This document shows positions 1,725-17,954 of a stretch of DNA of 20,088 nt, piece by piece (position 1 is the stretch's first letter; each line of letters begins with the position of its first letter). A model generated the notes under the pieces. That model had not been told where the DNA came from, did no database searches, and worked only from the letters and a program-made list of their open reading frames with translations. This DNA is from a virus, in IMG/VR virus record IMGVR_UViG_3300015372_000034, positions 1 to 20,088 of that record. The stretch is one strand, 5' to 3'. Position numbers and translations under genes: made by a program.

Positions 1725-1733
1725 TGGTACAGT
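1725..1733 (+). promoter_or_regulatory. Extended -10 element for a leaderless protease transcript
   Basis: TGGTACAGT combines a TGn extension with a TANNNT hexamer (1728-1733). It ends 8 bases before the GTG at 1742, which has no convincing Shine-Dalgarno. The geometry fits transcription starting at or near the start codon. No clear -35 is visible. A TAGACT hexamer lies just upstream at 1714-1719 and could be an alternative. This is inferred from the motif and its recurrence before five other starts. Confidence 0.5.
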
Positions 1734-1741
1734 GTCGGGGC

Positions 1742-2770
1742 GTGGATCCGTTCCCGCTCCATCCTCCGACTGCGTGGTTCACCCCACCGGCGGACATGCC
1801 AGAGGGACGCGACGTCTACGCCATCTCCAAGGGCGAGGAAGCAGGTCGTGTCTTCGGGTACGTGTGCCCCAAGAACAGTTGCATTCTGACGGCTGCCGTC
1901 CTCGGTCAGCAGACGGACGAGTGCTTCACTGCGCCGCCGTCTCCTACGCAGTATCGCGATGCCCATCCCGGCCACACTGAGACGCTGGAAGGCACCGAGC
2001 TTCGGACGGCCAACATCGGTGGGGGTGTGAACCACTACGACGCCGGCCCGTTCACGGCAGCAGTCGACCACTACGCCAACACGGCCAGTCAGCTCATGCG
2101 AGTCCGATACGGCGAGGACAAGTATGGAATCTGGGCAGCTGGTGCCATGTGGCCGGATCTGTCCGAGCGACAAGTTGCCATGATCCGGGCGTCAGCCCTG
2201 TCTGGTGACTGGCGCTGGCGGCCGGAGTACGGCGCCTACGACATGGCGGGGTCACAGCTGGTCAACAACCCGGGCTTCCCGCTGATCACGCAGCTGCCGA
2301 TGGCTGCCGCCCTTGGTGAACCGCCGCCGCTGTTTGGTGGCTGGGGTGGTGTGCCGGTCGTGGCCGCGACATTCAACGCCAACCAACGCAAGAACCTGGC
2401 GAAGTCAGGCGCGGCGATGCCAGACGGGTCGTTCCCGATTCGCAACCGCTCCGACTTGAAGAACGCCATCCAGGCGATCGGTCGGGCCAAGAATCCGGCT
2501 GCCGCGAAGGCTCACATCAAGAAGCGAGCGCGCGCGCTCGGACTCACCTCACTCCTCCCTGAGGGGTGGACCAGCAGAAAGGCTGCTTCAGCCATGAAGG
2601 ATCACGAGTGCACCTGCGGCGCCAACGACCCTGATCCGGTCTTGGCGGCGCTCACCGAGGACTCCCGCCAGGTCCTCATCGACGAGATCGTCACGCAAGT
2701 GACGGCGGGTCTTCAGCCCTTCGTCGACAAGATCGAAGAGGCAGTGACCCGGTTGCTGGTGGACGCCTGA
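1742..2770 (+). CDS. Capsid maturation protease
   Basis: This protease cleaves the scaffold region of the major capsid protein during head maturation. The chosen GTG start gives 342 residues beginning MDPFPLHPPTAWF; a TTG further upstream at 1694 would only add residues that overlap the portal gene. Residues 36-180 carry the family pattern: R-V-F-G-Y, a Cys/Pro-rich segment, the histidine-containing D-H-Y-A-N-T (His110), G-E-D-K-Y-G-I-W and L-S-G-D-W-R (Ser154), then N-N-P-G-F-P. By comparison with HK97-type proteases, His110 and Ser154 are my best guess for the catalytic pair. Residues 211-270 form a separate basic helical domain of the M-P-D-G-S-F-P-I-R-N type. After this come a short C-x-C motif (290-292) and an amphipathic C-terminal helix that may bind capsid or scaffold. 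It sits between portal and capsid genes, as expected. Confidence 0.88.
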   Translation: MDPFPLHPPTAWFTPPADMPEGRDVYAISKGEEAGRVFGYVCPKNSCILTAAVLGQQTDECFTAPPSPTQYRDAHPGHTETLEGTELRTANIGGGVNHYDAGPFTAAVDHYANTASQLMRVRYGEDKYGIWAAGAMWPDLSERQVAMIRASALSGDWRWRPEYGAYDMAGSQLVNNPGFPLITQLPMAAALGEPPPLFGGWGGVPVVAATFNANQRKNLAKSGAAMPDGSFPIRNRSDLKNAIQAIGRAKNPAAAKAHIKKRARALGLTSLLPEGWTSRKAASAMKDHECTCGANDPDPVLAALTEDSRQVLIDEIVTQVTAGLQPFVDKIEEAVTRLLVDA

Positions 2771-2799
2771 CACAGTCGTGGTACGTTGCCACGACTGTG
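2771..2799 (+). promoter_or_regulatory. Perfect 11-bp inverted repeat between protease and capsid genes
   Basis: The arms CACAGTCGTGG (2771-2781) and CCACGACTGTG (2789-2799) are exact reverse complements around a 7-base loop (2782-2788). The repeat begins right after the protease stop codon. As RNA it would form a strong hairpin, but no T tract follows, so it is not a canonical intrinsic terminator. It could attenuate or insulate transcription, protect the 5' end of a capsid mRNA, or act as an operator. Confidence 0.75.
2779..2787 (+). promoter_or_regulatory. Possible extended -10 for the major capsid gene
   Basis: TGGTACGTT matches the TGn-TANNNT form seen before the protease gene. It overlaps the last bases of the left arm and most of the loop of the inverted repeat. 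A transcript started about 7 bases downstream would carry a leader of roughly 50 bases that includes the AAGGAG site. No good -35 is seen at a usual spacing, so this is tentative. Confidence 0.35.
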
Positions 2800-2833
2800 G
2801 AGGCCATGAGCCGATCGTCTGAAGTCAACCCGC

Positions 2834-2839
2834 AAGGAG
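2834..2839 (+). promoter_or_regulatory. Shine-Dalgarno for the major capsid gene
   Basis: AAGGAG lies 7 bases before the ATG at 2847. It fixes the start of the capsid gene and contrasts with the SD-less starts of several neighbouring low-copy genes. Confidence 0.85.
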
Positions 2840-2846
2840 AGGTGCC

Positions 2847-4628
2847 ATGACCCCCGAGGAGCTTGCCGCGCTGCTGGACTCCCTCTCGGCTGAGACCGAT
2901 GAGGGTGCGATCCGCCAGGCGCACGAGGCGCTGGGCTCGCAGATCGCAGAGCTGCGCGCCAACGCGAAGACGTTGGATGACGCCACGAAGCTTCGTGAGC
3001 TTCGTGCCGCTCAGGCGAAGCTCCACACGGAGCTCGAGCGTCGAGTCGAGGAAGCCGAGGCTCTGGCCCAGGCCCTCGAGGAGACCAAGGAGGACCTCAC
3101 GCCGCCGGTGCCTAAGGCCAGCGACGCCCCTCCGGCCACCGAGGACCCCGACGCGGACACCGACGGGGACGGCGACGTGGATGAGGACGACGTCACCGAG
3201 CCGGACGACAAGGAGAAGGTCCTCGTCACGGCGGCGGCCAAGTCCAAGGCTCGGACCGACCAGCCGGCCGCCGAGAAGGAGACCACCGACACGGGTCGGC
3301 AGCCGCTGCCCTTCGTGTGGGCGGCCGCCCCCGGTCAGAGTGTGGTCAACCACGGCACTGAGCTCGACAAGACGAGCCTCGCTCGGCTGTTCGAGGACGC
3401 CCGCTCCAAGTGCATGGAGAACCCCGGCACCTACGTGGTCGCCTCGGTTCCCAGCTACGAGGAGCTCGGCGAGAACGTCGTCTCCATCCGTGATGGCGTG
3501 GTGCGCTGCGACGAGTTGGTCAAGGCGGCTCAAGCCAAGTGGGCCAAGGAGCACAACCTCTCGTACGAGCCGGACCGGGTCACCGCGGCCATCTGTGAGC
3601 CGTTCGAGGTCATCCGCCAGCTCGCCCCCTTCCAGGGCGTGACGGACACCCCGTTCGCGGACATCTTCCCCCAGACCCCGATGGCGCGGCTCGGCCTCCG
3701 GCTGACCAAGCGCAACTGGGGCCTGTCGGACATGGACGCCGGCTTCACGATGCCGTTCACCGGTCAGGACTCCGTGGACGAGGCGGTGCCCAGCACCTGG
3801 AAGCCCTGCATCACGATCCCCTGTCCGACGACCTTCGACATCACGGCGGAGGAACTCACGGCCTGCTTCAAGGTCCGCGACGACACCCTGATGTCCAGCC
3901 CCGAGACGGTGGACGACTTCCAGGAGCTGCTGTTCGTCCAGCGCGCTCGGCGCCGGGAGCAGTACCTCCTCGCCAAGTTCGACGCCCACGCGGACACGAT
4001 CAACCAGACGTATGAAGAGGCTCTCTTCCCGACGGGCGTCGACGTGCTGCCGAAGCTCGCGGAGGCCATCGCCACGTGGCTGGCGCACGCCCGCTACCCC
4101 AACCGGATCAACCTCGACACCTACACCCTCGTCCTGCCTCCGAACCTCGACCTGGTGCTGCGCCTCGGCCAGATCAAGCGGGCGTTCGGCGACAACGAGA
4201 TGACGGTCGCCGAGGCGGAGGCCTACATCCGCAACCTCACTGGTGTGGGGAACGTCGTTTGGCTGCGGGACAACCGCAACGGCGGCGTGGGCACCCAGCC
4301 CCAGCCTCTCATTCAGGCGGCGGCCGCCGACGGCAACCCGGAAGCTGTTCTCGCTGACGGCGTGATGGACCCGCTGAACGTCAACTACCGTGTGCGGCTC
4401 GTCGCCCCGGGTGACGCCATCTACGCGGTGGTCGGGTCCATGCAGACTGGCCTCGAGACGGACCCCCAGCTCCTGCGGCAGAACATGTCGCAGTGGTTCC
4501 TCAAGGAGTGGGTCGGCTTCGGCAAGAACGGCGCCAACCCGTGGGGCACCATCGACTTCCGCTGCCTGCTGCCCAACGGCGCCTCGGTCGGCTTCATGAC
4601 GCCGGTCTCCTGCCCGGCTGCCAGCTGA
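2847..4628 (+). CDS. Major capsid protein with N-terminal scaffold-like region
   Basis: This is the main shell protein, predicted to have the HK97 fold. It is 593 residues. Residues 1-85 are a charged, heptad-rich helical segment typical of a fused scaffold (delta) domain. Residues 85-150 are an acidic Pro/Asp/Glu linker, which includes an EF-hand-like loop at 104-115. From about residue 152 (P-L-P-F-V-W) the shell domain begins. It contains an N-terminal/E-loop-like region, a spine-helix-like stretch around 355-380 and, around 402-440, K-L-A-E-A followed by L-V-L-P-P-N-L-D. The protease encoded just upstream presumably removes the N-terminal region between about residues 120 and 152; the exact cut site cannot be read from sequence. 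The start has a strong AAGGAG, as expected for the most abundant virion protein. Confidence 0.9.
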   Translation: MTPEELAALLDSLSAETDEGAIRQAHEALGSQIAELRANAKTLDDATKLRELRAAQAKLHTELERRVEEAEALAQALEETKEDLTPPVPKASDAPPATEDPDADTDGDGDVDEDDVTEPDDKEKVLVTAAAKSKARTDQPAAEKETTDTGRQPLPFVWAAAPGQSVVNHGTELDKTSLARLFEDARSKCMENPGTYVVASVPSYEELGENVVSIRDGVVRCDELVKAAQAKWAKEHNLSYEPDRVTAAICEPFEVIRQLAPFQGVTDTPFADIFPQTPMARLGLRLTKRNWGLSDMDAGFTMPFTGQDSVDEAVPSTWKPCITIPCPTTFDITAEELTACFKVRDDTLMSSPETVDDFQELLFVQRARRREQYLLAKFDAHADTINQTYEEALFPTGVDVLPKLAEAIATWLAHARYPNRINLDTYTLVLPPNLDLVLRLGQIKRAFGDNEMTVAEAEAYIRNLTGVGNVVWLRDNRNGGVGTQPQPLIQAAAADGNPEAVLADGVMDPLNVNYRVRLVAPGDAIYAVVGSMQTGLETDPQLLRQNMSQWFLKEWVGFGKNGANPWGTIDFRCLLPNGASVGFMTPVSCPAAS

Positions 4629-4645
4629 CCCACCCACCCAGATCT

Positions 4646-4661
4646 GAAGGAGCGACGGGAG
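4646..4661 (+). promoter_or_regulatory. Two candidate Shine-Dalgarno sites for the capsid paralogue gene
   Basis: GAAGGAG (4646-4652) is the better match but lies 13 bases from the ATG at 4666. GGGAG (4657-4661) is weaker, at 4 bases. Either or both could be used. Confidence 0.6.
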
Positions 4662-4665
4662 CGAA

Positions 4666-5598: not shown

Positions 5599-5599
5599 G

Positions 5600-5605
5600 T
5601 AGGTT
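5600..5605 (+). promoter_or_regulatory. TANNNT element for the small basic protein gene
   Basis: TAGGTT ends 7 bases before the GTG at 5613, right after the previous stop codon (5596-5598). No Shine-Dalgarno is present. It fits the leaderless pattern seen elsewhere in the window. Confidence 0.45.
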
Positions 5606-5612
5606 GCCCGCT

Positions 5613-5822
5613 GTGAAGGACAATGAGCCAGAGCTTCCTCAGCCTCAGACACTCCAGGAGTTCCAGGCCCCACCTTTGAGCGGAGACGCCCCAGAGCCCG
5701 AGCGTGCCTCGAGCCCCCGGAAGTCCAAAGCCCCTGCCAAGGCCGCGGCCCGAAAGGCCGCAAGCCCCAAGACCGGAGCCACCAAGGCCGGCGCCCCCAA
5801 GAAGCGTAAGGAGACGCGATGA
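5613..5822 (+). CDS. Small Lys/Ala/Pro-rich, histone-H1-like protein
   Basis: This is a 69-residue protein with no recognised family. The first 30 residues are acidic and Pro/Gln-rich. The remainder is strongly basic, with repeated Ala-Lys, Ser-Pro-Lys and Ala-Pro-Lys units ending in K-K-R-K-E-T-R, like the tail of histone H1 or bacterial H1-like proteins. It is likely disordered and able to bind nucleic acid, but that is inference. The GTG start at 5613 is preferred because it follows the previous stop and has a TANNNT element 7 bases upstream; a longer in-frame start at 5559 would overlap the previous gene. Its final lysine and glutamate codons supply the ribosome binding site of the major tail gene, with which it overlaps by 4 bases (ATGA). 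Part of its role may therefore be translational coupling. Confidence 0.7.
   Translation: MKDNEPELPQPQTLQEFQAPPLSGDAPEPERASSPRKSKAPAKAAARKAASPKTGATKAGAPKKRKETR
5808..5813 (+). promoter_or_regulatory. Shine-Dalgarno for the major tail gene
   Basis: AAGGAG lies 5 bases before the ATG at 5819, inside the last codons of the small basic protein gene. It supports this start and strong translation of the tail tube protein. Confidence 0.85.
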
Positions 5823-6502
5823 CGCAGTCCATGTCAGTCCTGGGGTTCCGGGTCAGCCGCACCGATGCCACCGGAGCGCCCGACTTCGGCAACCCGGTTG
5901 GGTCCATGTACGTCTGCTCGGGTGTCCGCACCTTCCAGATGACGGACAACGTCGAGGCGGGCGACGACATCGCAGAGAAGGACGGCGCCAACCGGCTGTG
6001 CGTCACGCGTAAGTACGACGACAGCTTGAAGCGCGTCGACTTCAACATCGAGATGTGCGACGATAGCCGCAAGCTCAAGGAGATCCTCGGCATCGGCACG
6101 GCCGTCACCGTGAACGGTGATCCGTACGGCGGCCTCGTCACCCAGGCACGCACCGGCTGTTCGAACCCCACCCCTCGCAAGCCGGTCATCCTCGAGGTAT
6201 ATGTGGAGAACTGGGAGTGCTCTGGCCCGTCCGCGCCGTACCCCTACAAAGTCATCGTCTACCCGCGCGTGTTCCTGTCGACGGGCGACCGCACCTTCCA
6301 GTCGGGCCTCGTGCCGCTCACGCTCACCGGCTTCGCGGAGACCACGGCGGCGTTCTCGGACGGGCCGTTCGGCGACTACGACGAGCTCAACGTCGCGCCG
6401 TACAACACGGTCGGCTTCCTTCGCTACGAGCGGGACATCGCCGCGCTGCCGTCTAACGTCGACTGCTTGCAGCTCGCCGCACTACCTGGCTCCGCAAGCT
6501 GA
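5819..6502 (+). CDS. Major tail protein (tail tube subunit)
   Basis: This is the predicted subunit of the tail tube, which stacks as hexameric rings around the tape measure. It has 227 residues. The pattern is that of actinobacterial phage tail tube proteins: R-L-C-V-T (59-63), the beta strand D-F-N-I-E-M-C-D-D (74-82) leading to K-L-K-E-I-L-G, V-I-L-E-V-Y-V-E-N-W (123-132), Y-K-V-I-V-Y-P-R-V-F (143-152), L-T-L-T-G-F-A-E (167-174) and S-D-G-P-F-G-D-Y (180-187). It has a strong AAGGAG and a 4-base overlap with the gene before it. Its place ahead of the neck genes is unusual: in many siphoviruses the tube gene follows the tail terminator. I am fairly sure of the family from the strand pattern. 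Confidence 0.8.
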   Translation: MTQSMSVLGFRVSRTDATGAPDFGNPVGSMYVCSGVRTFQMTDNVEAGDDIAEKDGANRLCVTRKYDDSLKRVDFNIEMCDDSRKLKEILGIGTAVTVNGDPYGGLVTQARTGCSNPTPRKPVILEVYVENWECSGPSAPYPYKVIVYPRVFLSTGDRTFQSGLVPLTLTGFAETTAAFSDGPFGDYDELNVAPYNTVGFLRYERDIAALPSNVDCLQLAALPGSAS

Positions 6503-7233
6503 TGCCGGGGCCGTCGACGGCCCCCTGTCAACCGTGGGCCACGTGGGAACAGGCGGTCGTCTGTCACAACAACGCCCCGAGCCTTGAGGCAGCGCAGCGC
6601 ACATCGGTCATGCTGCGGGCCACGGCCATCCTGTCCCGGCTCTCGATCAACGCCGGGGCGCCGGCCTACGGGCTGTGTGAGCACACCGTTCGACCGTGTC
6701 GAACCTGCTCCTGCGGAGGCTGCGACACCTGCGACTGCGCGCCGTACTACGAGATCGAGCTGACGAACGAGTCGATCGCTGAGATCGTCGAGGTGCGGGT
6801 GGACGGCGTCGTCTTCGAGGACTGGCAGCTAGACAACTGGGGTCAGCTCGTCCGGACGGACGGCCAACCGTGGCCGTATTGCCAGAACAAGATCGGTGCG
6901 GCGACCGACACCGGCGTCTTCTCCGTCAAGTACTCAGTCGGGCTCGCGCCGCCGGAGGACGCTGTCGCTGTGGCCGCTGAGTTCGGCTTCCAACTGGCGC
7001 TGGCAGACTGCAGCGACAGCCGCTGTGTGTTGCCGCAGCGGGTGAAGTCCATCGTGCGAGAGGGCGTCACCATGACGCTGATCGACAAGATGGACTTCCT
7101 CTCTACGGGCGGCACCGGGGTTTACGAGATCGACCTCTGGCTCTCCTCGTTTAAGTCTCGGTCGGCAGGTGGTGGGCTCATGCACGCCGGGATGCGGTTC
7201 AAGAACCGGGTGTCTCAGACGTCGGTGCCCTGA
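6502..7233 (+). CDS. Head-to-tail adaptor (connector) protein
   Basis: This protein is expected to bind under the portal and begin the neck. It has 243 residues. Family landmarks are W-P-Y-C-Q (124-128), a V-x-Y-x-x-G-x-x-P-P segment (142-151), a helix ending with C-V-L-P-Q-R-V (175-181), then S-I-V-R-E-G-V-T and the G-G-T-G-V-Y-E-I-D-L-W-L motif (203-214). It has twelve cysteines, six of them between residues 66 and 79 in a C-x2-C-x-C-x2-C-x2-C-x-C array that could bind metal. The ATG overlaps the previous stop by one base (TGATG) with no clear ribosome binding site, so translation is probably coupled to the major tail gene. Confidence 0.82.
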   Translation: MPGPSTAPCQPWATWEQAVVCHNNAPSLEAAQRTSVMLRATAILSRLSINAGAPAYGLCEHTVRPCRTCSCGGCDTCDCAPYYEIELTNESIAEIVEVRVDGVVFEDWQLDNWGQLVRTDGQPWPYCQNKIGAATDTGVFSVKYSVGLAPPEDAVAVAAEFGFQLALADCSDSRCVLPQRVKSIVREGVTMTLIDKMDFLSTGGTGVYEIDLWLSSFKSRSAGGGLMHAGMRFKNRVSQTSVP

Positions 7234-7652
7234 TGCCGTGGGACCTGCGCCCCATGAAGGCGACGCTGCGTTCTCGGTCAGCCACAGCATTGGCAACTGG
7301 GACAGAGGTCACGGCGCTGCTGATCCGAGCTGCTGCACCCAAGCGGTCAGGTGAGCTGGCCAACAGCATCACGGTAGACCCAGGTCACTCGTCCGGTGAC
7401 AGGTTCGCCGCCAAGATCCAGACCAACTCGGTCCACGCACAGTACGTCTACCAGGGCACTGGCTTCTTCGGTCCCGCCCACCATGCCATCGTCCCGGTCT
7501 CGGCGCCGATGCTGGTCTTCGAGATCGACGGCACCACGATCCACGCTCAGAACACGGCAGGCCAGCGTCCACAGAAGGAGTGGTGGGACAACGGCATCAA
7601 CACCTGGAAGGAGGCGGTCGCCACCGCCTACGCTGCCAGGTTCGGTCGGTAG
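7233..7652 (+). CDS. HK97 gp10-like neck protein (head closure or tail completion)
   Basis: This 139-residue protein has the order seen in HK97 gp10-type joining proteins: an N-terminal helix, then A-P-K-R-S-G-E-L-A-N-S-I (35-46), a strand with K-I-Q-T-N, Y-V-Y-Q-G-T-G (71-77), A-I-V-P-V (85-89), a hydrophobic L-V-F-E-I strand, and a C-terminal helix beginning R-P-Q-K-E-W-W (112-118). Such proteins act in the neck or at the top of the tail. The start overlaps the adaptor stop by one base (TGATG), implying coupled translation. Whether it is the head stopper or a tail completion protein cannot be settled from sequence. Confidence 0.78.
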   Translation: MPWDLRPMKATLRSRSATALATGTEVTALLIRAAAPKRSGELANSITVDPGHSSGDRFAAKIQTNSVHAQYVYQGTGFFGPAHHAIVPVSAPMLVFEIDGTTIHAQNTAGQRPQKEWWDNGINTWKEAVATAYAARFGR

Positions 7653-7655
7653 GGT
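7650..7655 (+). promoter_or_regulatory. TANNNT element for the tail terminator gene
   Basis: TAGGGT includes the previous stop codon (TAG, 7650-7652) and ends 6 bases before the GTG at 7662. No Shine-Dalgarno is present. Because the TAG is already required as a stop, this is the weakest member of the set. Confidence 0.35.
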
Positions 7656-7661
7656 CACGTC

Positions 7662-8099
7662 GTGACGCTCTCTGCGCAAGGCGACGCGATTGCCCAGCAG
7701 CTCAACCTCGTCCTCGTCCCGCAGGCGAGGATGGAGCGGTACGTCGCCTCGGCACCGGTGGTCTGTTGTGAGGGGTGCGGGATCCTGACGTGGTGGCCGG
7801 GTGCCATGACGCCGGAGAACGAGGACGACTTCACCTGCCCGGGTCGGCTCCTCGCACGACTCCACTTCCGACTGACGGTGTGCTGGCCGACGCCTGATGA
7901 GCAGGGCAACTTCCCGCAGGCGGAGGCAGACGCCATCGCAGCTCAGCTGATGGACGAGCTCGCAGCGATGTCCAAGAAGATCATCGAGATGCAGTGCACG
8001 GCAGAGTGGCGGGGTCTACGACTGGTCGACAGCTTCACGCAGCCGCCGCAGGGCGGGTGCGCCACAGCTCGCCTTGAAGTTGAGATCGTAGTATCATAG
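7662..8099 (+). CDS. Tail-terminator-like protein
   Basis: This 145-residue protein occupies the tail terminator position, between the gp10-like gene and the tail chaperones. It begins with a helix, has a V-C-C-E-G-C-G cluster (34-40) and further cysteines at 59, 74, 112 and 133. A helix at 86-110 follows, then P-P-Q-G-G-C-A (128-134) leads into a final beta strand (L-E-V-E-I-V-V). The P-x-G-G-C-x-then-strand ending is common in small neck or terminator proteins of actinobacterial phages. A terminator would cap the tube and set its end. The assignment is by position plus this ending. The GTG start follows the previous stop by 9 bases and has a TANNNT element but no Shine-Dalgarno. Confidence 0.6.
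   Translation: MTLSAQGDAIAQQLNLVLVPQARMERYVASAPVVCCEGCGILTWWPGAMTPENEDDFTCPGRLLARLHFRLTVCWPTPDEQGNFPQAEADAIAAQLMDELAAMSKKIIEMQCTAEWRGLRLVDSFTQPPQGGCATARLEVEIVVS
8092..8097 (+). promoter_or_regulatory. -10-like element for the tail chaperone gene
   Basis: TATCAT matches the TATAAT consensus at five of six positions and ends 8 bases before the GTG at 8106. It overlaps the end of the upstream gene. No Shine-Dalgarno is present. An overlapping TAGTAT at 8089-8094 is a second possibility. Confidence 0.5.
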
Positions 8100-8105
8100 T
8101 CCTTC

Positions 8106-8615
8106 GTGCCTAACCTGCGTGACGTCCTCCACCTGCTCGACGACGGCACCGCAGTGCTGGTGGTGAACGACCAGGAGCTCAAGCTGCGGGAGCCGCTCAT
8201 CAAAGAATGGCGCGGGTTTATCCAGGACTTCACCGAGGCGGAGCGCCGAGTGATCATGTCGGTCAGTCAGCTGCGCGCCACGCTCGGTGACGACGAGATC
8301 ACTGACGACATGGACCCGTCGGAGCACCCGACCACGCAAGGCGCGGCCTACGCCACGGTGCTGTGCCGGATCATTCGTACGCTGAGTGAGGACGCCATCT
8401 CGTTGGACCCCGGTGACCTGCCGGCGTGGTGCGGGATGCCGGAGGTGATCGTTGCACTCGAGCACCACTGGACGCACGTCCCTTTAGCTATCGGGTCCCA
8501 GCCGGCGAAGATGGTGCCGCACGCGAAGGTGCTGGAAGCAGTGGGGATCCAGACGGTGCAGAGCGACCTGCTCGAACGACTCTCACAAGCTGGCTTGGAG
8601 TCTACGCAGAGCTGA
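8106..8615 (+). CDS. Tail assembly chaperone, upstream (G-like) product
   Basis: This 169-residue acidic protein is the unshifted product of the chaperone locus. Such chaperones bind the tape measure protein and deliver tube subunits during tail assembly. Support comes from its position directly before the tape measure gene, from the overlapping open frame in the -1 register, and from a slippery heptamer. The N-terminal half has a beta-rich start (A-V-L-V-V-N-D-Q-E-L-K-L) and then helices. Residues 123-144 (T-H-V-P-L-A through P-H-A-K-V-L) form the conserved-looking region around the shift site. The GTG start follows the preceding stop by 6 bases and has a -10-like element but no Shine-Dalgarno. 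Confidence 0.78.
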   Translation: MPNLRDVLHLLDDGTAVLVVNDQELKLREPLIKEWRGFIQDFTEAERRVIMSVSQLRATLGDDEITDDMDPSEHPTTQGAAYATVLCRIIRTLSEDAISLDPGDLPAWCGMPEVIVALEHHWTHVPLAIGSQPAKMVPHAKVLEAVGIQTVQSDLLERLSQAGLESTQS

Positions 8616-8812
8616 TTCGAGCACTGCTGCCAGCCGGCATCACGCCACCGGTCTTGGACGAGATGACCTTCTTCCAGGTGGCGGCCGTCGTCGGCGCTGA
8701 TCTCAAGGAGAAGGCCGACCCCAACCGAGAGATGCAGCTGGTGTGGGACCGCAAGGAGGTCCAGTCCACCGCAGTGGTGTCAAGCACCGGTGTGGTGGGC
8801 AAGGTCACATAG
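8106..8812 (+). CDS. Tail assembly chaperone, -1 frameshift fusion (GT-like)
   Basis: Reading switches from the frame of 8106 to the -1 frame, which is open to the TAG at 8810-8812. If the ribosome slips on CCCTTTA (8480-8486), the fusion has 127 residues from the first frame and 108 from the second, 235 in all. The last 70 or so residues of the second frame look like real protein (L-T-S-W-L-G-V-Y-A-E-L-I-R and M-T-F-F-Q-V-A-A-V-V-G), whereas the stretch just after the slip looks like a low-conservation linker. No independent ribosome binding site or likely start codon for the second frame is evident. In lambda and many siphoviruses the shifted product is minor and its C-terminal part contacts the tape measure. 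Confidence 0.75.
8480..8486 (+). other. Programmed -1 frameshift site CCCTTTA
   Basis: C CCT TTA fits the X XXY YYZ rule in exact register with the upstream frame (codons CCT 8481-8483 and TTA 8484-8486). After slipping, the tRNAs pair with CCC and TTT. It is the only such heptamer I find in the overlap of the two frames (8426-8615). TTA is a rare codon in this GC-rich sequence. I saw no convincing downstream hairpin. Confidence 0.7.
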
Positions 8813-8813
8813 A

Positions 8814-8819
8814 TAGGAT
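8814..8819 (+). promoter_or_regulatory. TANNNT element for the tape measure gene
   Basis: TAGGAT lies just past the previous stop codon and ends 8 bases before the ATG at 8828. No Shine-Dalgarno is present. It fits the leaderless pattern. Confidence 0.5.
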
Positions 8820-8827
8820 CCTGCGCC

Positions 8828-11800
8828 ATGGCGTTGAGCGAGACACTCACCCTGGACATCTCCCAGGCACAGCGTCAGCTTGATCAGCTCCAGAAGCAAG
8901 TCGACACCCTCCGCGCCTCGATCGCCAAGTCTGGTGGCGCCGGCTTCGACTCGACCCAGCTCAACTCAGCCACTACTGCGACACAGCGGCTGAGCAAGGC
9001 CTTCGACACCATGATCGCTTCGGGCGCCAAGCTCGCCCAAGTGGGTCGGAACCTCTCGGTCATCTCGCTGCCCTTGATCGCTGTCGGTGTGGCAGCAGAC
9101 CGAGCGGCGATCAAGTTCGAGGACACGTTCCTCCGCATCCAGACCTTGACCAACACGGCGACCAAGGACCTCGGCAAGTTCCGTGACGCGACGCTGAACC
9201 TGGCGGGCACCTTCGGCCAGGGGCCGCAGGACCTGGCCGAAGCTCTGTTCTTCATCACCTCGAACGGCATCCAGGGCGCGAAGGCCTTGGATGTCCTGAA
9301 GGTCTCAGCGCAGGGCGCCGCCCTGCAGCTCGGCACCACGCAGGTCGTGGCGTCCAACATCACGTCCATTATGAACGCCTACGGCAAGTCGAACCTCTCG
9401 GCTGCCCGGGTGCTCGACATCCTGGTCGCCTCCGAGAAGGAGTCCAAGACGGCGGCGGCCGAACTGATCACCCAGTACGGACGAGTCCTGCCCGCCGCGT
9501 CCGTACTGGGTGTCTCCTTCGAGGAGGTCTCCGGCATCCTGTCGTTCTTCACCAGGACGACGGGCTCGGCGTCGCAGGCCGGCACCCAGCTGAGCAACAT
9601 CCTCAACAAGCTGATCAAGCCGTCGGTCGAAGCGAAGAACGTCCTGAAGTCGATCGGCATCACGTCGGTGGAGAACCTCGACGCCCTCGTCAAGCAGAAC
9701 GGCGTCCTCAACACGGCGCAGCTCATCTTCGAGAAGCTGGGTCGAGACCCTGAGAAGTTCGCCAAGGTCTTCGGCAACATCCGAGGCATCGCAGGTGCGC
9801 TGCAGCTCGTCGGACCCAGCGCGCAAGACGCTCGCGACGCCATCGACCGGGTGATCAACTCGGTTGGTGCTGCGGACGCGGCGTTCCGCCAGCTGCAGAA
9901 CAACCCGGCCTTCCAGCGCAAGCAGGCGTTCGCCGAGTTCCAGGCGGCGCTGATTGAGGTGGGCGAGCTGCTCATCCCAATCGGCAACAAGATCATCGGG
10001 TTCGGCAAGTCAATCGCTGAGGCGTTCCTCTCGCTGCCGAAGCCCATCCAAGACGTGCTCATCGCCATCGGCGGGTTCGTCGCCATCCTCGGACCGGCAG
10101 CGCTGGGCATCGGCCACCTGGTGCAGGGCATCGGACAGCTGGGCAAGTCACTGCTCGACATCCCAGCGCCGCTGCTGGTCATCGGCGCCGCCCTCGCCGC
10201 CGGTGCCTTGCTCTGGTTCCAGTACACCAAGGACTCCCGCGAGGCAGCGAAGGCGGCTAAGGAGTTCCGCGGCAACTTGCAGGACAGCGCACAGGCGCTG
10301 GACATCGAGGCCATCGCCACCCTCAACGCAGCGGACGCCCACCGACAGTACGCCGCGGCCGTCAACGAGTCGAACGTGGCGGGCTTCAAGAAGAAGCTCA
10401 CCGACAAGAACCAGATCGACGACCTCAACCGACTCGGCATCTCCCTGCAGGACGCCACCAAGATCACGGGCACAGCTGTGGAGCAGGAGGAGCTACTCAA
10501 CCGGATCCGCCTGCGCTCGTTCCAGACGGGCGAGATCACGCTTCGATTGAACGACCAGAACATCTCGGCGACTGGCAGACACAGCGAGGCGCAGCAGAAG
10601 CTGATCGACACGTTCCTCCGGACGGGCAGCATCCAAGACCAGCTCAACCGAGGCGTCAACGCTCAGATCCGGGGCAACACTGATCTGATCAGCACGTTCG
10701 AGAAGGAGTCGACTGCCGCTCAGACGTCGACCGCGCAGCTAGTCGAGTTGACGAAGTCGGGTGACGCGCAGGCAGCGGCGATCCTCAAGGCGCGCGGTGA
10801 GTGGGACAAGCTCACACCGTCGCAGCAGAAGGCAGCGCAGCAGTCGCTCGACCTCGCAGTGGCCGGCAAGAAGCTACAGGAAGCACAGCAGGGCTCCGTT
10901 GGCACACTCAACGAGACGCAGCAGCATCTCGAGGATCTCGCGGCGTCAGCCGGCGACACGGCGTCGAGCTACGACGACCTGACCAAGGCCGTCGACGACG
11001 CTCGCGACTCGGTCTCACTCTTCCTCGGGATCCCGTTGAACGCCGCGGAGCAGCAGCTCAAGTGGAACACCGCTCTGCAAGACTTCGCGAAGCAGGTTAA
11101 GGACTCCAATCTTGGAATCAGTGAGTGGACTAACCTCAGTGGCGACCAACTCACTCAGGTGCGTAAGAACGAGCAGGGCTACATCAGCCTGGCCAAGACG
11201 ATCCAGGAGAACGTTTCCGAGAACCTCAAGCACGGCGACTCGATCGACACCGTCAAGCAGAAGTACAACGATCAGCGCACGCAGCTGGAGCAGATCGGTC
11301 TCTCGGCCGGGTTGACCAAGGACGAGATGGACGCCTACAACAAGACGCTCGGCCTGACACCCGAAGCAGTGGACACGGCGCTCGCACTCGCTGGCGTCGA
11401 CGAGAACCAGCGCAAGCTCGACGAGTACAACAAGCTCCTGTCAGCGCTGCCGCCTGATGTGCAGACTCTCGTCAAGGAGGTCGGCGCCAAGGACGCCCAG
11501 GCCGGTGTCCAGCTCCTGGCGCAGAAGCTCCTCGAGCTTCCGCCGGAGCAGCTTACCGCAGTAGGGATCAGCGGCAAGGACGAAATGATCCAGATCCTGA
11601 CAGACCTGGGGCTGGACGTCACGACGCTGGGTGATCTGGTCGCTGAGCCGACCGTCACGGTTGATCCTCTGCCAGCTAAGGCCAGCATCGCTGGCGTCGC
11701 CAAGGAGATGGACGGTCTCGACAAGAAGGAGGCCAAGCCTACAGCGACTCTCACCGACCACGCGACCGTGCCGATCAAGGCAGTGACTGGCGCCATGAAC

Positions 11801-12394
11801 ACCTTGAGTGGATTGGTCGCGACGCCGACAGTCGAGGTACGCGGTGTGGGAGCCGCGTTAAACGCAATCGGCGGACTCATCGGCCAGCTGCAGCGGCTGG
11901 GCACAGCGCGCGCTACCGCGTCTGCTGGGACCGGTCCCACCTCGGTGCCCGGTGTGGCGTCTGGTGCCATCTTCGGAGCGGGAGGTGTCCGACGGATGCG
12001 CGAGGGCGGTATCATCGGAGATCGGCTGCCGGCGATCGGTCGCACGACGTCGGGAGCCGGGATCCTGTGGGCGGAGCCTGAGACTGGTGGCGAGTCCTAC
12101 ATCCCGCACGGACTCCGCTACCGGTCTCGGGCGATCGGCCTCACCAAGGAAACGGCGCGCATGTTCGGCTACGACATGGTGCCGCGCGGGACGGCCACGC
12201 CGTCCGGTCCGACCGTCGCTCGGCTGGCAGACGGTCACATCACAGAGCTCACCCACGCCGTCGTCCACATGTCGAAGACGGTGCGCCGGCTGGAGGACAA
12301 GGTCGGCGACGTCAACATCACTGTGGAAGGCGGCGATCGCTCGGCGAAGGCGCTAGGATCTGAGCTCGGCCGCCTCGTGGCCACTGCGCGATGA
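8828..12394 (+). CDS. Tape measure protein
   Basis: This protein sets tail length and is ejected ahead of the DNA. It has 1188 residues, the longest product here. Residues 1-60 are helical and coiled-coil-like. Residues 95-330 carry the TP901-1-type tape measure core, with segments such as A-L-F-F-I-T-S-N-G-I, S-I-M-N-A-Y-G and the G-S-A-S-Q-A-G-T-Q-L-S-N-I-L helix. Hydrophobic segments lie at about 409-440 and 446-465 and may enter the host membrane during ejection. Long charged helices follow. The C-terminus (from about residue 1060) has the G-G-I-I-G, I-L-W-A-E-P-E-T-G-G-E-S-Y-I-P-H-G pattern usual at tape measure ends. At about 1.5 angstrom per residue, a rule from other siphoviruses, the tail would be about 180 nm. 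No lytic domain is evident. It overlaps the next gene by 4 bases. Confidence 0.93.
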   Translation: MALSETLTLDISQAQRQLDQLQKQVDTLRASIAKSGGAGFDSTQLNSATTATQRLSKAFDTMIASGAKLAQVGRNLSVISLPLIAVGVAADRAAIKFEDTFLRIQTLTNTATKDLGKFRDATLNLAGTFGQGPQDLAEALFFITSNGIQGAKALDVLKVSAQGAALQLGTTQVVASNITSIMNAYGKSNLSAARVLDILVASEKESKTAAAELITQYGRVLPAASVLGVSFEEVSGILSFFTRTTGSASQAGTQLSNILNKLIKPSVEAKNVLKSIGITSVENLDALVKQNGVLNTAQLIFEKLGRDPEKFAKVFGNIRGIAGALQLVGPSAQDARDAIDRVINSVGAADAAFRQLQNNPAFQRKQAFAEFQAALIEVGELLIPIGNKIIGFGKSIAEAFLSLPKPIQDVLIAIGGFVAILGPAALGIGHLVQGIGQLGKSLLDIPAPLLVIGAALAAGALLWFQYTKDSREAAKAAKEFRGNLQDSAQALDIEAIATLNAADAHRQYAAAVNESNVAGFKKKLTDKNQIDDLNRLGISLQDATKITGTAVEQEELLNRIRLRSFQTGEITLRLNDQNISATGRHSEAQQKLIDTFLRTGSIQDQLNRGVNAQIRGNTDLISTFEKESTAAQTSTAQLVELTKSGDAQAAAILKARGEWDKLTPSQQKAAQQSLDLAVAGKKLQEAQQGSVGTLNETQQHLEDLAASAGDTASSYDDLTKAVDDARDSVSLFLGIPLNAAEQQLKWNTALQDFAKQVKDSNLGISEWTNLSGDQLTQVRKNEQGYISLAKTIQENVSENLKHGDSIDTVKQKYNDQRTQLEQIGLSAGLTKDEMDAYNKTLGLTPEAVDTALALAGVDENQRKLDEYNKLLSALPPDVQTLVKEVGAKDAQAGVQLLAQKLLELPPEQLTAVGISGKDEMIQILTDLGLDVTTLGDLVAEPTVTVDPLPAKASIAGVAKEMDGLDKKEAKPTATLTDHATVPIKAVTGAMNTLSGLVATPTVEVRGVGAALNAIGGLIGQLQRLGTARATASAGTGPTSVPGVASGAIFGAGGVRRMREGGIIGDRLPAIGRTTSGAGILWAEPETGGESYIPHGLRYRSRAIGLTKETARMFGYDMVPRGTATPSGPTVARLADGHITELTHAVVHMSKTVRRLEDKVGDVNITVEGGDRSAKALGSELGRLVATAR

Positions 12395-13710: not shown

Positions 13711-14864
13711 CGGCCACCTTCGCAGTCCCGCTCAACACCAACTACAACCAGCTGCTGGATCCCAACCGGCCTCGGTGTCTCTGCGCTGAGTACCAGGCCA
13801 TCGTGGTGGACCGACACACGTTGCAGCCCATCGTGCGGCTGCCAGTCTACGCGACGTCTGGGACGTGGTCTCGGGAGCTCAATCAAACGAGCGAGGCCAC
13901 GGCGACGGTCGACCTGTCGTCCCCGCTCTCCGGCAACTGCTGCCGAAAGCTGACGCAGGTCAGCGAGTGGGGCCACGAGCTGATCATCACGCGAGCAGGG
14001 GACCAGCACGCCTGCTGGATCGGGCCGATCGTCAGTGCGCAAGAGCAGAATCAGGGCACCCAGTTCGCCATCCGCGCACTCGACCGGACGTCGTGGTTCA
14101 CTCGCATCCCGGTGCCGGTCGACGTGGTCTACGGGGACGCCAACCCGATCGACGCCAGCCAGCTGTTCAAGGTGCTGTACGACCTGGCGAAGACGCAGTT
14201 CGACCCGCAGCTGACACTGATCGTGACGAACACCGGGATCAACGTCACGCAGACGATCGTCGGGACTGATCAGCTACTACTGACTGACGCCATCACCAGT
14301 TCAGCCACGGCAGCGGCGGACTGGGTGACGGTGGGCTCGACGCTGCTGATCGGCGGAAAGCTTGTGCCGGCGCCGTACATCAAGCTGCGGTCCTCCATGT
14401 GGGTCGATCCCGGACCGAGTGTGACTGAGGACGGCCGTGCGTTGGCTACCCATGTCACGGTCTTCGGCGACAAGGTGCAGGCGACCTACCCGTCCGGGCC
14501 GCCGTTCACCCCGCACCCGTTCTACGGGCTGCACCTGCACAAGGCGACCGACAACCGGTTCACGGACGTGGCGTCGTGCCTCGCCGCGGCGAAGTCACTG
14601 TACGAGCTCAACAGCCAGCCGGCCGTGTTCATCACGACAAGCGACACTTCACTCGGGCCGAAGTCGACGGTGCTGCCGCCTCAGCTGATCCCGGGGCAGA
14701 CGGCGCTGATCGCCATCGAGCAGGGCTGCCGCTCCAACGCCCAGACCGTGCAGGCTCGGCTGAGTCGGATGGAAGTGGAGTGGACGGACGGCGTTGAGAC
14801 GTCGGTCAAGCCGGACTTCCAGCCACCGGGCTCCATTGACGTCGTGGTGGGTGGCTACCAGTGA
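13707..14864 (+). CDS. Minor tail protein, baseplate hub-like
   Basis: This 385-residue protein starts at a GTG that overlaps the previous stop (GTGA). A longer reading from 13608 is unlikely because its extra residues are low-complexity and overlap the distal tail gene. The pattern of an N-terminal beta domain with S-G-T-W-S-R-E-L (48-55), E-L-I-I-T-R-A-G-D with W-I-G-P-I-V (about 90-107), then I-R-A-L-D-R-T-S-W-F (119-128) matches the tail hub or Gp37-like minor tail proteins that follow the distal tail gene in many Gram-positive phages. Such proteins form the central tip through which the tape measure and DNA exit. There are few cysteines beyond the N-terminal half. No peptidase motif was found. 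It overlaps the fibre gene by 4 bases. Confidence 0.75.
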   Translation: MTATFAVPLNTNYNQLLDPNRPRCLCAEYQAIVVDRHTLQPIVRLPVYATSGTWSRELNQTSEATATVDLSSPLSGNCCRKLTQVSEWGHELIITRAGDQHACWIGPIVSAQEQNQGTQFAIRALDRTSWFTRIPVPVDVVYGDANPIDASQLFKVLYDLAKTQFDPQLTLIVTNTGINVTQTIVGTDQLLLTDAITSSATAAADWVTVGSTLLIGGKLVPAPYIKLRSSMWVDPGPSVTEDGRALATHVTVFGDKVQATYPSGPPFTPHPFYGLHLHKATDNRFTDVASCLAAAKSLYELNSQPAVFITTSDTSLGPKSTVLPPQLIPGQTALIAIEQGCRSNAQTVQARLSRMEVEWTDGVETSVKPDFQPPGSIDVVVGGYQ

Positions 14865-17665
14865 GTGCGCGCGGACAGGGTGAGCTCACACCCAGTTCGG
14901 TGCCGAGTGTCACGCTGCTGCGCTGGCTGGAGGCGCTGCGCAAGGACGTCGACGAGCTACAGGAGTCGAAGGCCCGAGATGGGCTGCCGTACCCGCTGCG
15001 GTGGAAATCGACCAAGCTGACGAATGCTCCGAGCTTCCACATCCAGCTGTGGAACCCCATCACCGGTGAGCTGTGCGACGTGTGCGGCGGCAGCGGCACG
15101 ACGATCTGCGACTGCGAGGACGGCGCGCCCGGCCCTCCAGGTCCTCCCGGTCCTCCCGGGTCTGCCGGTCCGGGTGTTCCGACTGGAGGAGCTTCGGGCG
15201 AGTCGCTGATCAAGGTCAGTGGCGCCGACTTCGACACGGCCTGGGGGACTCCGGATCCGCCCGACCTATCGATCGACCAGCTGACAGACGTCAACACGTC
15301 TGGCGCCGGCAACAACGACATGCTGCTCTACGACAGCGGCTCCAGCTCCTGGTTCCCGGGCGGTATCTTCCTGGACGACCTCCTCAACGTCACCGCATCG
15401 TCACCGGCTGACGGTGATGCGCTGGTCTGGGACAACGGCGCCTCAGCGTGGGTGCCGGGCGCTGGCGTCGGGTCCCCGGGCCCTGCCGGTCCCCCAGGTG
15501 GCAGCCTCTCGTACCTGTTCGACACCGGCACGTCGGTAGCCGACCCTGGCGATGGACACATCCGCTTCAACGATGCGGCTGGGCTCGCTACCAAGCTCGT
15601 GATTGACGCCGTCGACGCCAACCTTGTTGACCAGGACCTGGTCATCCCGACATGGGCAGAGTCCAACTCGACCGTGCGCGGCACGCTTCTCGTCTCCGCC
15701 GCCGCGGCGCCGGAGAGTCGGTGGGCCATGTTCCAGATCACGGGCTACACCTTCCACATCGGATGGTTCGAGTTCAACGTGACCCCCGTGCAGGATGTTG
15801 GCACGGCCCCGGCGGACGAAGAGGCTGTCACCATCGTCTTCTCCCGCACGGGCGACAAGGGCACCACGGGATCGACTGGTGCGACAGGCGCTACGGGCCA
15901 ATGGGGTGGGGCCGTCACGATCCCCTACCACTTCTCCACAACCACCACGAACTCCGACCCGGGCTCGGGGAACTTGCGTCTCGATCAGGCAGTCCAGGAC
16001 ACTGCTTCCACCATCCGAGTTGACGTGCTTGACGTGAACGCCTCGTCATGGGAGACACTCCTCGACACGATGGATCTGCCTAGCCATTCGCCGAAGGGCT
16101 ACATCAGGCTGGTTCGCGCTACCGCACCGACGGAGTGGTTCCTGTACGAGCTGATGGCGGTTGACTCCTCTTCGGGCTATCGCAACATCACGGTCGTCCT
16201 CTCAGAGATCGGGACTCAGGCCGGCAGTTCCCCGTTCGTGAACGGCGAGCTGCTCTATCTGCTCTACGACCGCAACGGTGACGACGGAGTGGACGGGACG
16301 GATTTCACGGCGGCAGCCGGGCCGATGGGCTATGCCTACCGCACCTCTAACCAGACGATCACTACCGCAACGGAAACACGTGTCGACTTCGACACGTCTA
16401 CCGCCGAGAACGGCATGACTTTCAACGCGACCAACGACTGGTTCGTCGTCCCCTCCACTGGCTGGTACACGCTCCAGGCCGTTCTCCGCTGGGCCTCGGC
16501 GGCAGGAAACGCCAACGTCATCACGCGCATCGGCGTTACCAATGCCGCTGGCTCGGTGACGACCATCGTAGCGTCGGAGGCGATCGCCGTCGGTGCCTCC
16601 ATTACCGTCGAGCAGTCTCCCGGCATCACTATGAAGTTGACCGCCGGCGACAAGGTCTTCTTGCAGGCTTACCACGACACTGGCTCCAATCGGAACCTGG
16701 ATTACGTTTCCTCTGGCTTCAGGTTTATCTCGCTCTCGGTGGCCTCCGTCGAAGGCGCCCAGGGCCCCCAGGGCCCTGCGGGTAGCGGCGCCTCAGCGCT
16801 CGATGATCTAACCGACGTCGACACGACTGGCGCAGTCTCGGGCGACCATCTCGCTTTCGATGGCTCCGACTGGGTTCCGTCGACGCCATCCGTCTTGATC
16901 CTCGATGCGGGCTCCTCAATGCCGAACCCCGGCAACGAGGGCGTCACGATGCGTTTCAAGCACGTCGTGTTCGAGGACACTGGGGACTACTGGTGGCCTC
17001 TAGGGGGCCGCATGGAGCAAATCCAATACGAGTTCACTCACTTCTTCAACAACAACGCTCAGAAACTAGAACTGCAGTCGAGTGCCAGTGGTACAGGCGC
17101 TGCAGCGAACGCGGGCGTAGCAGCTGCTGGTGTACAGGGTCTCGTCTCTCTCGACACTGGCACGACGAGTACAGGCCGGGCGTCTTACGCAGCCGGACAG
17201 GCGAGCGCTCTGCGCGGCACGGCAGACAAGATCATGCAGTTCCATACGAGGGTGCGGTTCCCGACGCTGTCTACCTCAGGAGAGCGGTACATCTTTGCGG
17301 CTGGGTATATCTCCTCGCTCACCGCTACCTCTCCTGACGGCTTCTACTTCCGTTACGATGAGAGCGTCTCGGCCAACTGGTATGCCGTGGTGACCAACAA
17401 CAGCTCCGGCATCACTGGAGTAACCACCGGAGTCGCGGTCGGTACCAATACCTTCCAGAAGCTCCGCATCGAGGTCGACGAGACCGCCACCTCCGCGAAG
17501 TTCTACATCGACAACGTCCTCACCAACACGATCACCACCAACTTCCCCGGCACAACCAGGGACTTTGGACCCGGTGTCAACATGCGGAAGACGAACGGTA
17601 CGACAGCGCGGACTGCTGAGGTGGACTATCTCGGTTACTGGTCCTTGATGACGACCACGATCTAG
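14861..17665 (+). CDS. Modular collagen-like tail fibre, probable receptor-binding protein
   Basis: This 934-residue protein probably forms a trimeric fibre at the tail tip. Residues 1-40 include a short coiled coil that may anchor it. A C-x2-C-G-G-S-G...C-x-C motif (72-85) resembles a DnaJ-type zinc site. Five collagen-like Gly-X-Y runs lie near 88-105, 204-213, 331-346, 473-479 and 632-641. Three L-T-D-V-type repeats ending in S-x-W-x-P lie at 138-167, 171-200 and 647-674. Two copies of a beta-rich domain occupy 218-346 and 356-480. Residues 485-632 look like a C1q/TNF-type jelly roll (F-x-V-P-x-x-G-W-Y-T-L-Q-A core). Residues 680-934 look like a concanavalin- or laminin-G-like lectin domain (F-Q-K-L-R-I-E-V-D then F-Y-I-D-N-V). 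The GTG start overlaps the previous stop. The module assignments are by pattern; the collagen repeats are certain. Confidence 0.85.
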   Translation: MSARGQGELTPSSVPSVTLLRWLEALRKDVDELQESKARDGLPYPLRWKSTKLTNAPSFHIQLWNPITGELCDVCGGSGTTICDCEDGAPGPPGPPGPPGSAGPGVPTGGASGESLIKVSGADFDTAWGTPDPPDLSIDQLTDVNTSGAGNNDMLLYDSGSSSWFPGGIFLDDLLNVTASSPADGDALVWDNGASAWVPGAGVGSPGPAGPPGGSLSYLFDTGTSVADPGDGHIRFNDAAGLATKLVIDAVDANLVDQDLVIPTWAESNSTVRGTLLVSAAAAPESRWAMFQITGYTFHIGWFEFNVTPVQDVGTAPADEEAVTIVFSRTGDKGTTGSTGATGATGQWGGAVTIPYHFSTTTTNSDPGSGNLRLDQAVQDTASTIRVDVLDVNASSWETLLDTMDLPSHSPKGYIRLVRATAPTEWFLYELMAVDSSSGYRNITVVLSEIGTQAGSSPFVNGELLYLLYDRNGDDGVDGTDFTAAAGPMGYAYRTSNQTITTATETRVDFDTSTAENGMTFNATNDWFVVPSTGWYTLQAVLRWASAAGNANVITRIGVTNAAGSVTTIVASEAIAVGASITVEQSPGITMKLTAGDKVFLQAYHDTGSNRNLDYVSSGFRFISLSVASVEGAQGPQGPAGSGASALDDLTDVDTTGAVSGDHLAFDGSDWVPSTPSVLILDAGSSMPNPGNEGVTMRFKHVVFEDTGDYWWPLGGRMEQIQYEFTHFFNNNAQKLELQSSASGTGAAANAGVAAAGVQGLVSLDTGTTSTGRASYAAGQASALRGTADKIMQFHTRVRFPTLSTSGERYIFAAGYISSLTATSPDGFYFRYDESVSANWYAVVTNNSSGITGVTTGVAVGTNTFQKLRIEVDETATSAKFYIDNVLTNTITTNFPGTTRDFGPGVNMRKTNGTTARTAEVDYLGYWSLMTTTI
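15122..15175 (+). repeat. Longest collagen-like Gly-X-Y run in the fibre
   Basis: Six consecutive triplets encode G-A-P, three G-P-P, G-S-A and G-P-G (residues 88-105). In viral fibres such runs form triple-helical shafts, so this supports a trimeric fibre. Confidence 0.9.
15512..16300 (+). repeat. Duplicated beta-rich domain in the fibre
   Basis: Residues 218-346 and 356-480 share a common order: Y/F start with D-T or S-T, D-P-G-x-G, a strand with alternating hydrophobics and a V-x-D-x-N segment, G-Y or G-T-L strand, a W-x-x-F/Y strand, a long V-T-I-V or L-Y-L-L strand, and an R-x-G-D-x-G ending that runs into collagen triplets. The two copies are divergent, so the duplication is old or was acquired as a repeated module. 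Confidence 0.65.
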
Positions 17666-17682
17666 TGCCGGACCTCGTGCTG

Positions 17683-17691
17683 TGCTAGCAT
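17683..17691 (+). promoter_or_regulatory. Extended -10 element for the 84-residue gene
   Basis: TGCTAGCAT is a TGn-TANNNT element whose hexamer (17686-17691) ends 8 bases before the ATG at 17700. It lies in a 34-base gap with no Shine-Dalgarno. It matches the form and spacing of the element before the protease gene. Confidence 0.55.
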
Positions 17692-17699
17692 GAGCGGTC

Positions 17700-17954
17700 A
17701 TGGGTCGAGGCCGGTGCAACTGCGGGAGTGGTTCTGGCGACATCAACTTCTCGAACGCCGGCAACGTCGATCTGAGTGGCGACGGCTCCGTGCCGAACCC
17801 GTACGTGTTCGACTTGGATCCGGTGCAGCTCATCGCGGACCTCGGGGCCGTGCTCCAAGGCAGTCAATGCGGTAGCACGCGGGTGATCGGCGTCTCGGGT
17901 GGCACCCTGAGGCTGATCGACCTGCCGCCGAACCGCTGCAAGCGCTTTGTGTAA
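17700..17954 (+). CDS. Small tail-tip-associated protein
   Basis: This 84-residue protein has no family I can name. It begins M-G-R-G-R-C-N-C-G-S-G-S-G, followed by G-S-V-P-N-P-Y-V-F-D-L (29-39), a turn-strand pattern that is also seen in small segments of phage tail-fibre proteins (G-S-x-x-N-P-Y-V). A short helix (42-53) and a Cys-containing strand region follow. Four cysteines are present (6, 8, 57 and 80). It lies between the fibre and another glycine-linker tail protein, so a tail-tip role is likely. The ATG at 17700 is chosen because of the -10 element 8 bases upstream. The stop codon overlaps the ribosome binding site of the next gene. Confidence 0.65.
   Translation: MGRGRCNCGSGSGDINFSNAGNVDLSGDGSVPNPYVFDLDPVQLIADLGAVLQGSQCGSTRVIGVSGGTLRLIDLPPNRCKRFV

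Follow-up and report, generated by a model that had tools for sequence, protein, structure and literature searches.

The late operon of a phage is usually pictured as a single long transcript that is translated from Shine-Dalgarno (SD) sites. Here we ask how expression begins at genes within such an operon that follow a gap, have little or no SD site and carry a –10-like TANNNT hexamer at a nearly constant distance from the start codon. The locus is the viral fragment IMGVR_UViG_3300015372_000034, which is complete at 20,088 bases, has a GC content of 65% and was analyzed over its whole length (hereafter, the window). It is a head and tail gene module with every gene on the + strand: by PHROG/Pfam-type annotation it begins with the portal gene (3-1721) and includes the major capsid gene (2847-4628, SD-led), the major tail gene (5819-6502, SD-led), the head-tail adaptor gene (6502-7233) and the neck protein gene (7233-7652), the starts of the last two overlapping the gene upstream, as well as minor tail genes. 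No tRNA genes were found in its 20,088 bases. A nucleotide search of the whole window against 50,697 phage records gave no match, while its proteins match those of Mycobacterium, Gordonia, Microbacterium, Streptomyces and Arthrobacter phages, mostly at 20-40% identity. The hosts of the matching phages are almost exclusively Actinobacteria, and an actinobacterial host is the natural inference for the phage studied here.

Six hexamer-led gene starts in the window

Six genes of the module start behind a TANNNT hexamer. The preliminary description had placed these hexamers 6-8 bases before the start codons, and every coordinate checks out. On the + strand, TACAGT (1728-1733) lies at a gap of 8 bases from the GTG at 1742, the start of the gene for the capsid maturation protease (1742-2770; PHROG phrog_18402, head maturation protease), which like the five genes below is a candidate for leaderless expression. 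Its product is closest to a protein of the related locus L229 (52% identity), and the homologue in L336 is likewise TANNNT-led. TAGGTT (5600-5605, +) precedes the GTG at 5613 by a gap of 7 and leads the gene of a 69-aa protein (5613-5822) without a match in PHROG or Pfam. TAGGGT (7650-7655, +) stands at gap 6 from the GTG at 7662, and its TAG doubles as the stop codon of the gene at 7233-7652, the one shared stop codon that had been pointed out before. The product of the gene behind it (7662-8099) is homologous to a family of module proteins conserved among the relatives (HMM E 1.7e-12); the L025 member of this family matches PHROG phrog_810, and the homologue in L348 is also TANNNT-led. The two neck-type genes at 7233 and 7662 are in swapped order: in the relatives whose gene order was compared, the phrog_810 family comes ahead of the neck protein.

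The fourth hexamer, TATCAT (8092-8097, +), falls within the end of gene 7662-8099 and is followed at gap 8 by the GTG of gene 8106-8615, whose place immediately 5′ of the tape measure gene suggests the tail assembly chaperone. Homology of its product to the relatives' chaperone family was not detected, so that the equivalence is positional. A candidate –1 frameshift heptamer, C_CCT_TTA (8480-8486, +), lies in the zero frame of this gene; the slippery CCCTTTA leads into a –1 frame (8417-8812) that is open to 8812. This is the layout of a frameshifted chaperone pair, and a programmed frameshift is likely here. At 8814-8819 (+), TAGGAT is found at gap 8 from the ATG of the tape measure protein gene (8828-12394; PHROG phrog_1533, E 7.6e-52), and TAGCAT (17686-17691, +) is at gap 8 from the ATG of an 84-aa protein gene (17700-17954) located 3′ of a tail-fibre-like gene. 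The 84-aa product has no match in PHROG or Pfam. The tail-fibre-like gene itself (14861-17665) encodes 934 aa with a weak match, under the curated cut-offs, to a C1q/BclA-C-like domain. The TGn extension reported for two of the sites is indeed present, as TGG before 1728 and TGC before 17686. We also considered that the TAG of the TAGNNT hexamers might be a by-product of stop codons and rejected this, as an in-frame stop is found in only one of the six.

As had been stated, TANNNT is rare in this GC-rich window (26 on the + and 25 on the – strand in 20,088 bases). It nevertheless occurs at gap 6-8 before 6/16 gene starts; the rate at random positions is 0.39% (binomial P 2.7e-11), and none of 241 internal in-frame ATG/GTG codons is preceded by it in this way. 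The 16 starts fall into three exclusive classes with none unassigned: the six TANNNT-led ones, four led by a strong SD (2847, 4666, 5819 and 17964, all +; duplex with the anti-SD sequence, –7.4 to –11.3 kcal/mol), and six that share 1 or 4 bases with the gene upstream (6502, 7233, 12391, 13707, 14861 and 18605, all +). The claim that the TANNNT-led genes lack an SD held in part. It is clear at 8106 and 17700, whereas the case is weak to ambiguous at 5613 (–5.8 kcal/mol), 7662 (–6.2) and 8828 (–4.0), where the three hexamers contain AGG(N). At 1742 the duplex energy is –5.0, and the sole pairing comes from a GGGG run adjoining the start codon.

The base at –1 is a pyrimidine at 6/6 sites, followed by the purine of the start codon. 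A shared –35 box among the six sites was sought and not found, and a strict σ70 scan of the window returned no TTGACA/TATAAT promoters, as expected for –10-only promoters, although this is no positive evidence for them. A search of the + strand for intrinsic terminators preceding the sites found none. The only other intergenic TANNNT is a TACGTT (2782-2787, +), 59 nt before the SD-led major capsid gene at 2847. It is located at the loop of a strong hairpin formed by a perfect 11-bp inverted repeat (2771-2800; fold z –2.7) between the protease and major capsid genes, and the two together could possibly be a leadered capsid promoter or a processing site.

Recurrence of the hexamer in related and cultured phages

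Scanning viral contigs with one protein at a time (capsid, tape measure or portal) retrieved no relatives. Alignment-based queries for adaptor and protease gave 80, 80 and 80 loci in overlapping sets and 215 related loci altogether. The genes of these loci were taken from a codon-usage caller that is blind to upstream sequence, and the starts are the caller's own. The gap profile covers 2,283 distinct starts; these come from loci that have a GC content of 60% or more and lack the Streptomyces-type box (see below), the window excluded.

In this set, TANNNT occurs 78, 34 and 9 times at gaps 6, 7 and 8, compared with about 4-5 times at nearby gaps (2,283 starts, from loci that are phylogenetically non-independent). 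The peak belongs to genes without an SD, which contribute 70, 31 and 9 cases against a mean of 2.3 at other gaps; SD genes contribute 8, 3 and 0 (110 versus 11 TANNNT-led genes, Fisher P 3e-21). Enrichment over other positions had been set beforehand as the result on which the idea could fail, and it is present: among the relatives' no-SD genes, gap 6 exceeds the other gaps 30-fold and gap 7 does so 13-fold. Two AT-rich control hexamers, ATNNNT and TTNNNA, gave a flat profile at the same starts. Reversed and complemented hexamers, examined in the first 84 loci, showed no comparable peak; the reversed TNNNAT was found 12 times at gap 6, compared with 33 for TANNNT.

The –1 base provides an independent sign, as it played no role in gene selection. 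Among the 121 TANNNT-led genes, 93% have a pyrimidine there, versus 52% of 1,068 others (P 1.7e-20) and 53% of a further non-TANNNT class. Overlap with the upstream gene is found for 2% of TANNNT-led genes versus about 30% of others, a difference that fits a need for a separate 5′ end at each TANNNT-led gene. The 121 genes show no –35 consensus, and the three middle bases of their hexamers are uninformative.

Which genes are TANNNT-led varies. Over 216 loci the tail assembly chaperone family is the most frequent (33/83), followed by adaptor (13/137), tape measure (10/102), protease (8/159) and portal (7/111), and several loci, like the window, have more than one such gene: L317 has six, L348 five, and L315, L358, L251, L075 and L085 four each. 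These family counts and multi-site loci indicate that the scheme is common while the set of genes using it differs among phages. The same arrangement is seen with published gene starts of cultured actinophages: TANNNT stands at gap 6-8 before 19/220 structural starts from eleven phages, where chance would give ∼1 at a TANNNT density of about 1 per kb. Examples are the portal and adaptor genes of Struggle. TANNNT-led tape measure genes are present in Struggle, Sisko, CRB2 and Clawz as well as in the loci L315, L358 and L075.

Predicted leaderless promoters and their alternatives

Based on these observations, we propose that the six sites are very probably host-type –10 promoters that give rise to leaderless mRNAs inside the late operon. 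This had been suggested from the window alone, and the prediction is now supported by the enrichment in relatives, the restriction to no-SD genes and the pyrimidine-purine step. The hexamer would be the –10 element of a short housekeeping-σ promoter of Actinobacteria (TANNNT, –35 not needed), placed at a gene boundary. RNA polymerase would take as its start point the first purine found 7-9 bases downstream, which coincides with the A or G that opens the start codon and has a pyrimidine before it; the transcript would thus have no leader or a minimal one (0-2 nt), with ribosomes initiating on its 5′-terminal AUG or GUG without an SD. Genes further down on the same transcript would be reached via SD sites or the 1- and 4-base overlaps. 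Protease, chaperone, tape measure and the three other genes would in this way receive an extra transcript on top of read-through. Within this scheme we infer transcription initiation, its timing in infection, the type of host and leaderless translation from sequence.

The strongest alternative accepts the promoters and differs in the start point: transcription could begin slightly off the first base of the codon, 1-3 nt upstream or a few nt downstream of it, giving very short leaders or a start within the gene. The window gives some reason to consider it, since 4/6 of its sites have gap 8, compared with 9/121 of the relatives' genes (Fisher P 0.0009), which favour gaps 6-7. At gap 8 the polymerase might start one or two bases further down, or the mRNAs might carry 1-2 leading bases. 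However, 3/4 of the gap-8 sites carry two pyrimidines immediately ahead of the start codon (tc, cc, tc). Transcription starts poorly on pyrimidines, and this favours a start on the codon itself, which offers the first good purine; 1742 is the only gap-8 site with a purine two bases upstream of the start. We consider the shifted start unlikely.

It is also conceivable, but improbable, that the hexamers act as weak SD sites through base pairing of AGG or GGA in TAGGNT to 16S rRNA, their TANNNT shape being a coincidence. Three of the six window hexamers do contain AGG, with duplex energies between –4.0 and –6.2 kcal/mol. Relative to the start codon, however, these AGG cores are 1-3 nt more distant than those of the window's real SD genes, and TACAGT, TATCAT and TAGCAT have no AGG at all. 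In the 121 genes of the relatives the middle bases are nearly without preference, with TACCGT a common hexamer, and pairing would leave both the fixed T and A and the pyrimidine at –1 unexplained.

Close counterparts of the predicted promoters are known from Actinobacteria and their phages. In Actinobacteria, TA-led leaderless genes of high-GC genomes carry TANNNT about 12 bp (first T) before the start and no SD (Zheng 2011, PMC3160421); in the window the first T is at 12-14 bp, likewise with little or no SD. Those genes are cellular, whereas the window sites lie between successive genes of a co-oriented phage operon, and the same authors argued that operon-distal genes usually need an SD. Mapped starts of Mycobacterium tuberculosis show TANNNT, no –35 consensus and C as the commonest base at –1, with purines starting 85% of transcripts and the TGN extension rare (Cortes 2013, PMC3898074). 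The phage sites share the TANNNT –10, the missing –35, the predicted purine start, the prevalent C at –1 and the rare TGN with this leaderless transcriptome; those host promoters were mapped experimentally, whereas the phage sites are predicted. For Cluster O mycobacteriophages, leaderless SigA promoters with +1 at the first base of the start codon have been predicted in three cases (PMC4351075). Two of them are in a divergent intergenic region, and the third, PL2, lies in the structural operon and serves a leftward gene. In contrast, the window has a predicted series of co-oriented promoters inside a rightward structural operon.

We found no description of serial leaderless promoters within phage structural operons in the literature searched, in which subscription journals are thinly covered. 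Leaderless TANNNT initiation in Actinobacteria is known, and its predicted repeated use inside phage structural operons is new. The leaderless mRNA of phage lambda is that of cI, a single repressor gene expressed in lysogeny, whereas virion genes are concerned here; a phage gene on a leaderless mRNA, predicted in our case, is what the two have in common. Leaderless initiation in lambda is cited in PMC3160421.

If virion genes have leaderless promoters of their own, gene dosage in actinophages would be set at many points within the operon, which would bear on the synthesis of virion proteins when the host favours leaderless translation, for example during starvation. Start-codon annotation in phages of GC-rich hosts should then use TANNNT, as for bacteria. 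Mycobacteriophages that are in culture and open to genetics, and Gordonia or Microbacterium phages, offer predicted sites for a direct test.

A bipartite unit in Streptomyces phages

A box with the consensus GGAANGATCWT is found in 39 of the first 84 loci, where it is part of a longer unit that includes the –10 element, GGAAYGATCWT-N14/15-TACCGT. In a genome scan, the 41 matches to this unit came mainly from Streptomyces, and the others were spread among unrelated phyla in the way that chance would produce. We searched nine phage contigs in full; seven of them contain the unit, six with 4-5 copies on a single strand, and the reversed control gave no match in these nine contigs. The genome of S. 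caniscabiei has five units in 10.9 Mb. The eight literature matches listed, out of 218, for the box GGAATGATC were unrelated sequences only.

Among 118 distinct units, 68 stand at gap 6-8 before the start codon of no-SD genes and at least six are found upstream of an SD-led gene at a distance of 32-41 nt. A third group of 17 units has the form CACAAT and lies inside a gene, the protease gene in the loci laid out. Since the shape of the unit is constant while its distance to the start depends on the presence of an SD, it is best read as a promoter and not as a translation signal.

These positions bear on the reading that TANNNT at a fixed distance is a non-SD ribosome-binding element. A translation element, too, would keep its distance, and the window tests only the distance to start codons. 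Yet the Streptomyces-phage element, with its –35-like box, also occurs well upstream of SD-led starts, and the pyrimidine-purine step at –1/+1 is a mark of bacterial transcription starts; we regard such an element as very improbable. Chance combined with selective choice is a negligible explanation: the preliminary description had picked its genes after the motif was seen, but the P value given above counts all 16 starts, agreeing with its view that chance is unlikely, and the same peak appears in 2,283 other starts. The GGAAYGATCWT box is absent from the window, whose sites are –10-only, so the unit supports the mechanism and not membership of the window in this group.

A broader reading is tentative, and we consider it somewhat short of evenly balanced: actinophages as a group would have many internal leaderless promoters in their late structural operons, one per dosage-critical gene, and chaperone, tape measure, protease and adaptor could then be boosted independently of read-through and of SD-dependent initiation. 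In one Streptomyces-phage lineage these promoters would make up a late regulon with a box of its own, possibly read with a phage-made factor.

Copies of the unit (for example at 108, 3295, 11551 and 20130 of L038, in the L006-L085 set; also in the Streptomyces genomes L188 and L225) are located before the SD-led portal gene, in the protease gene, and before the chaperone gene and the gene of a protein of ~125 aa, both predicted to be leaderless. The arrangement resembles a dedicated late regulon in Streptomyces phages. The CACAAT form in the protease gene (L025:4730, L038:3295 and equivalents) is followed, after a few tens of nt, by an internal SD with GTG/ATG, for example aggaggcggcaccGTGCCGTAC. 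It possibly drives a nested scaffold protein with its own promoter, an arrangement like that of lambda Nu3 within C.
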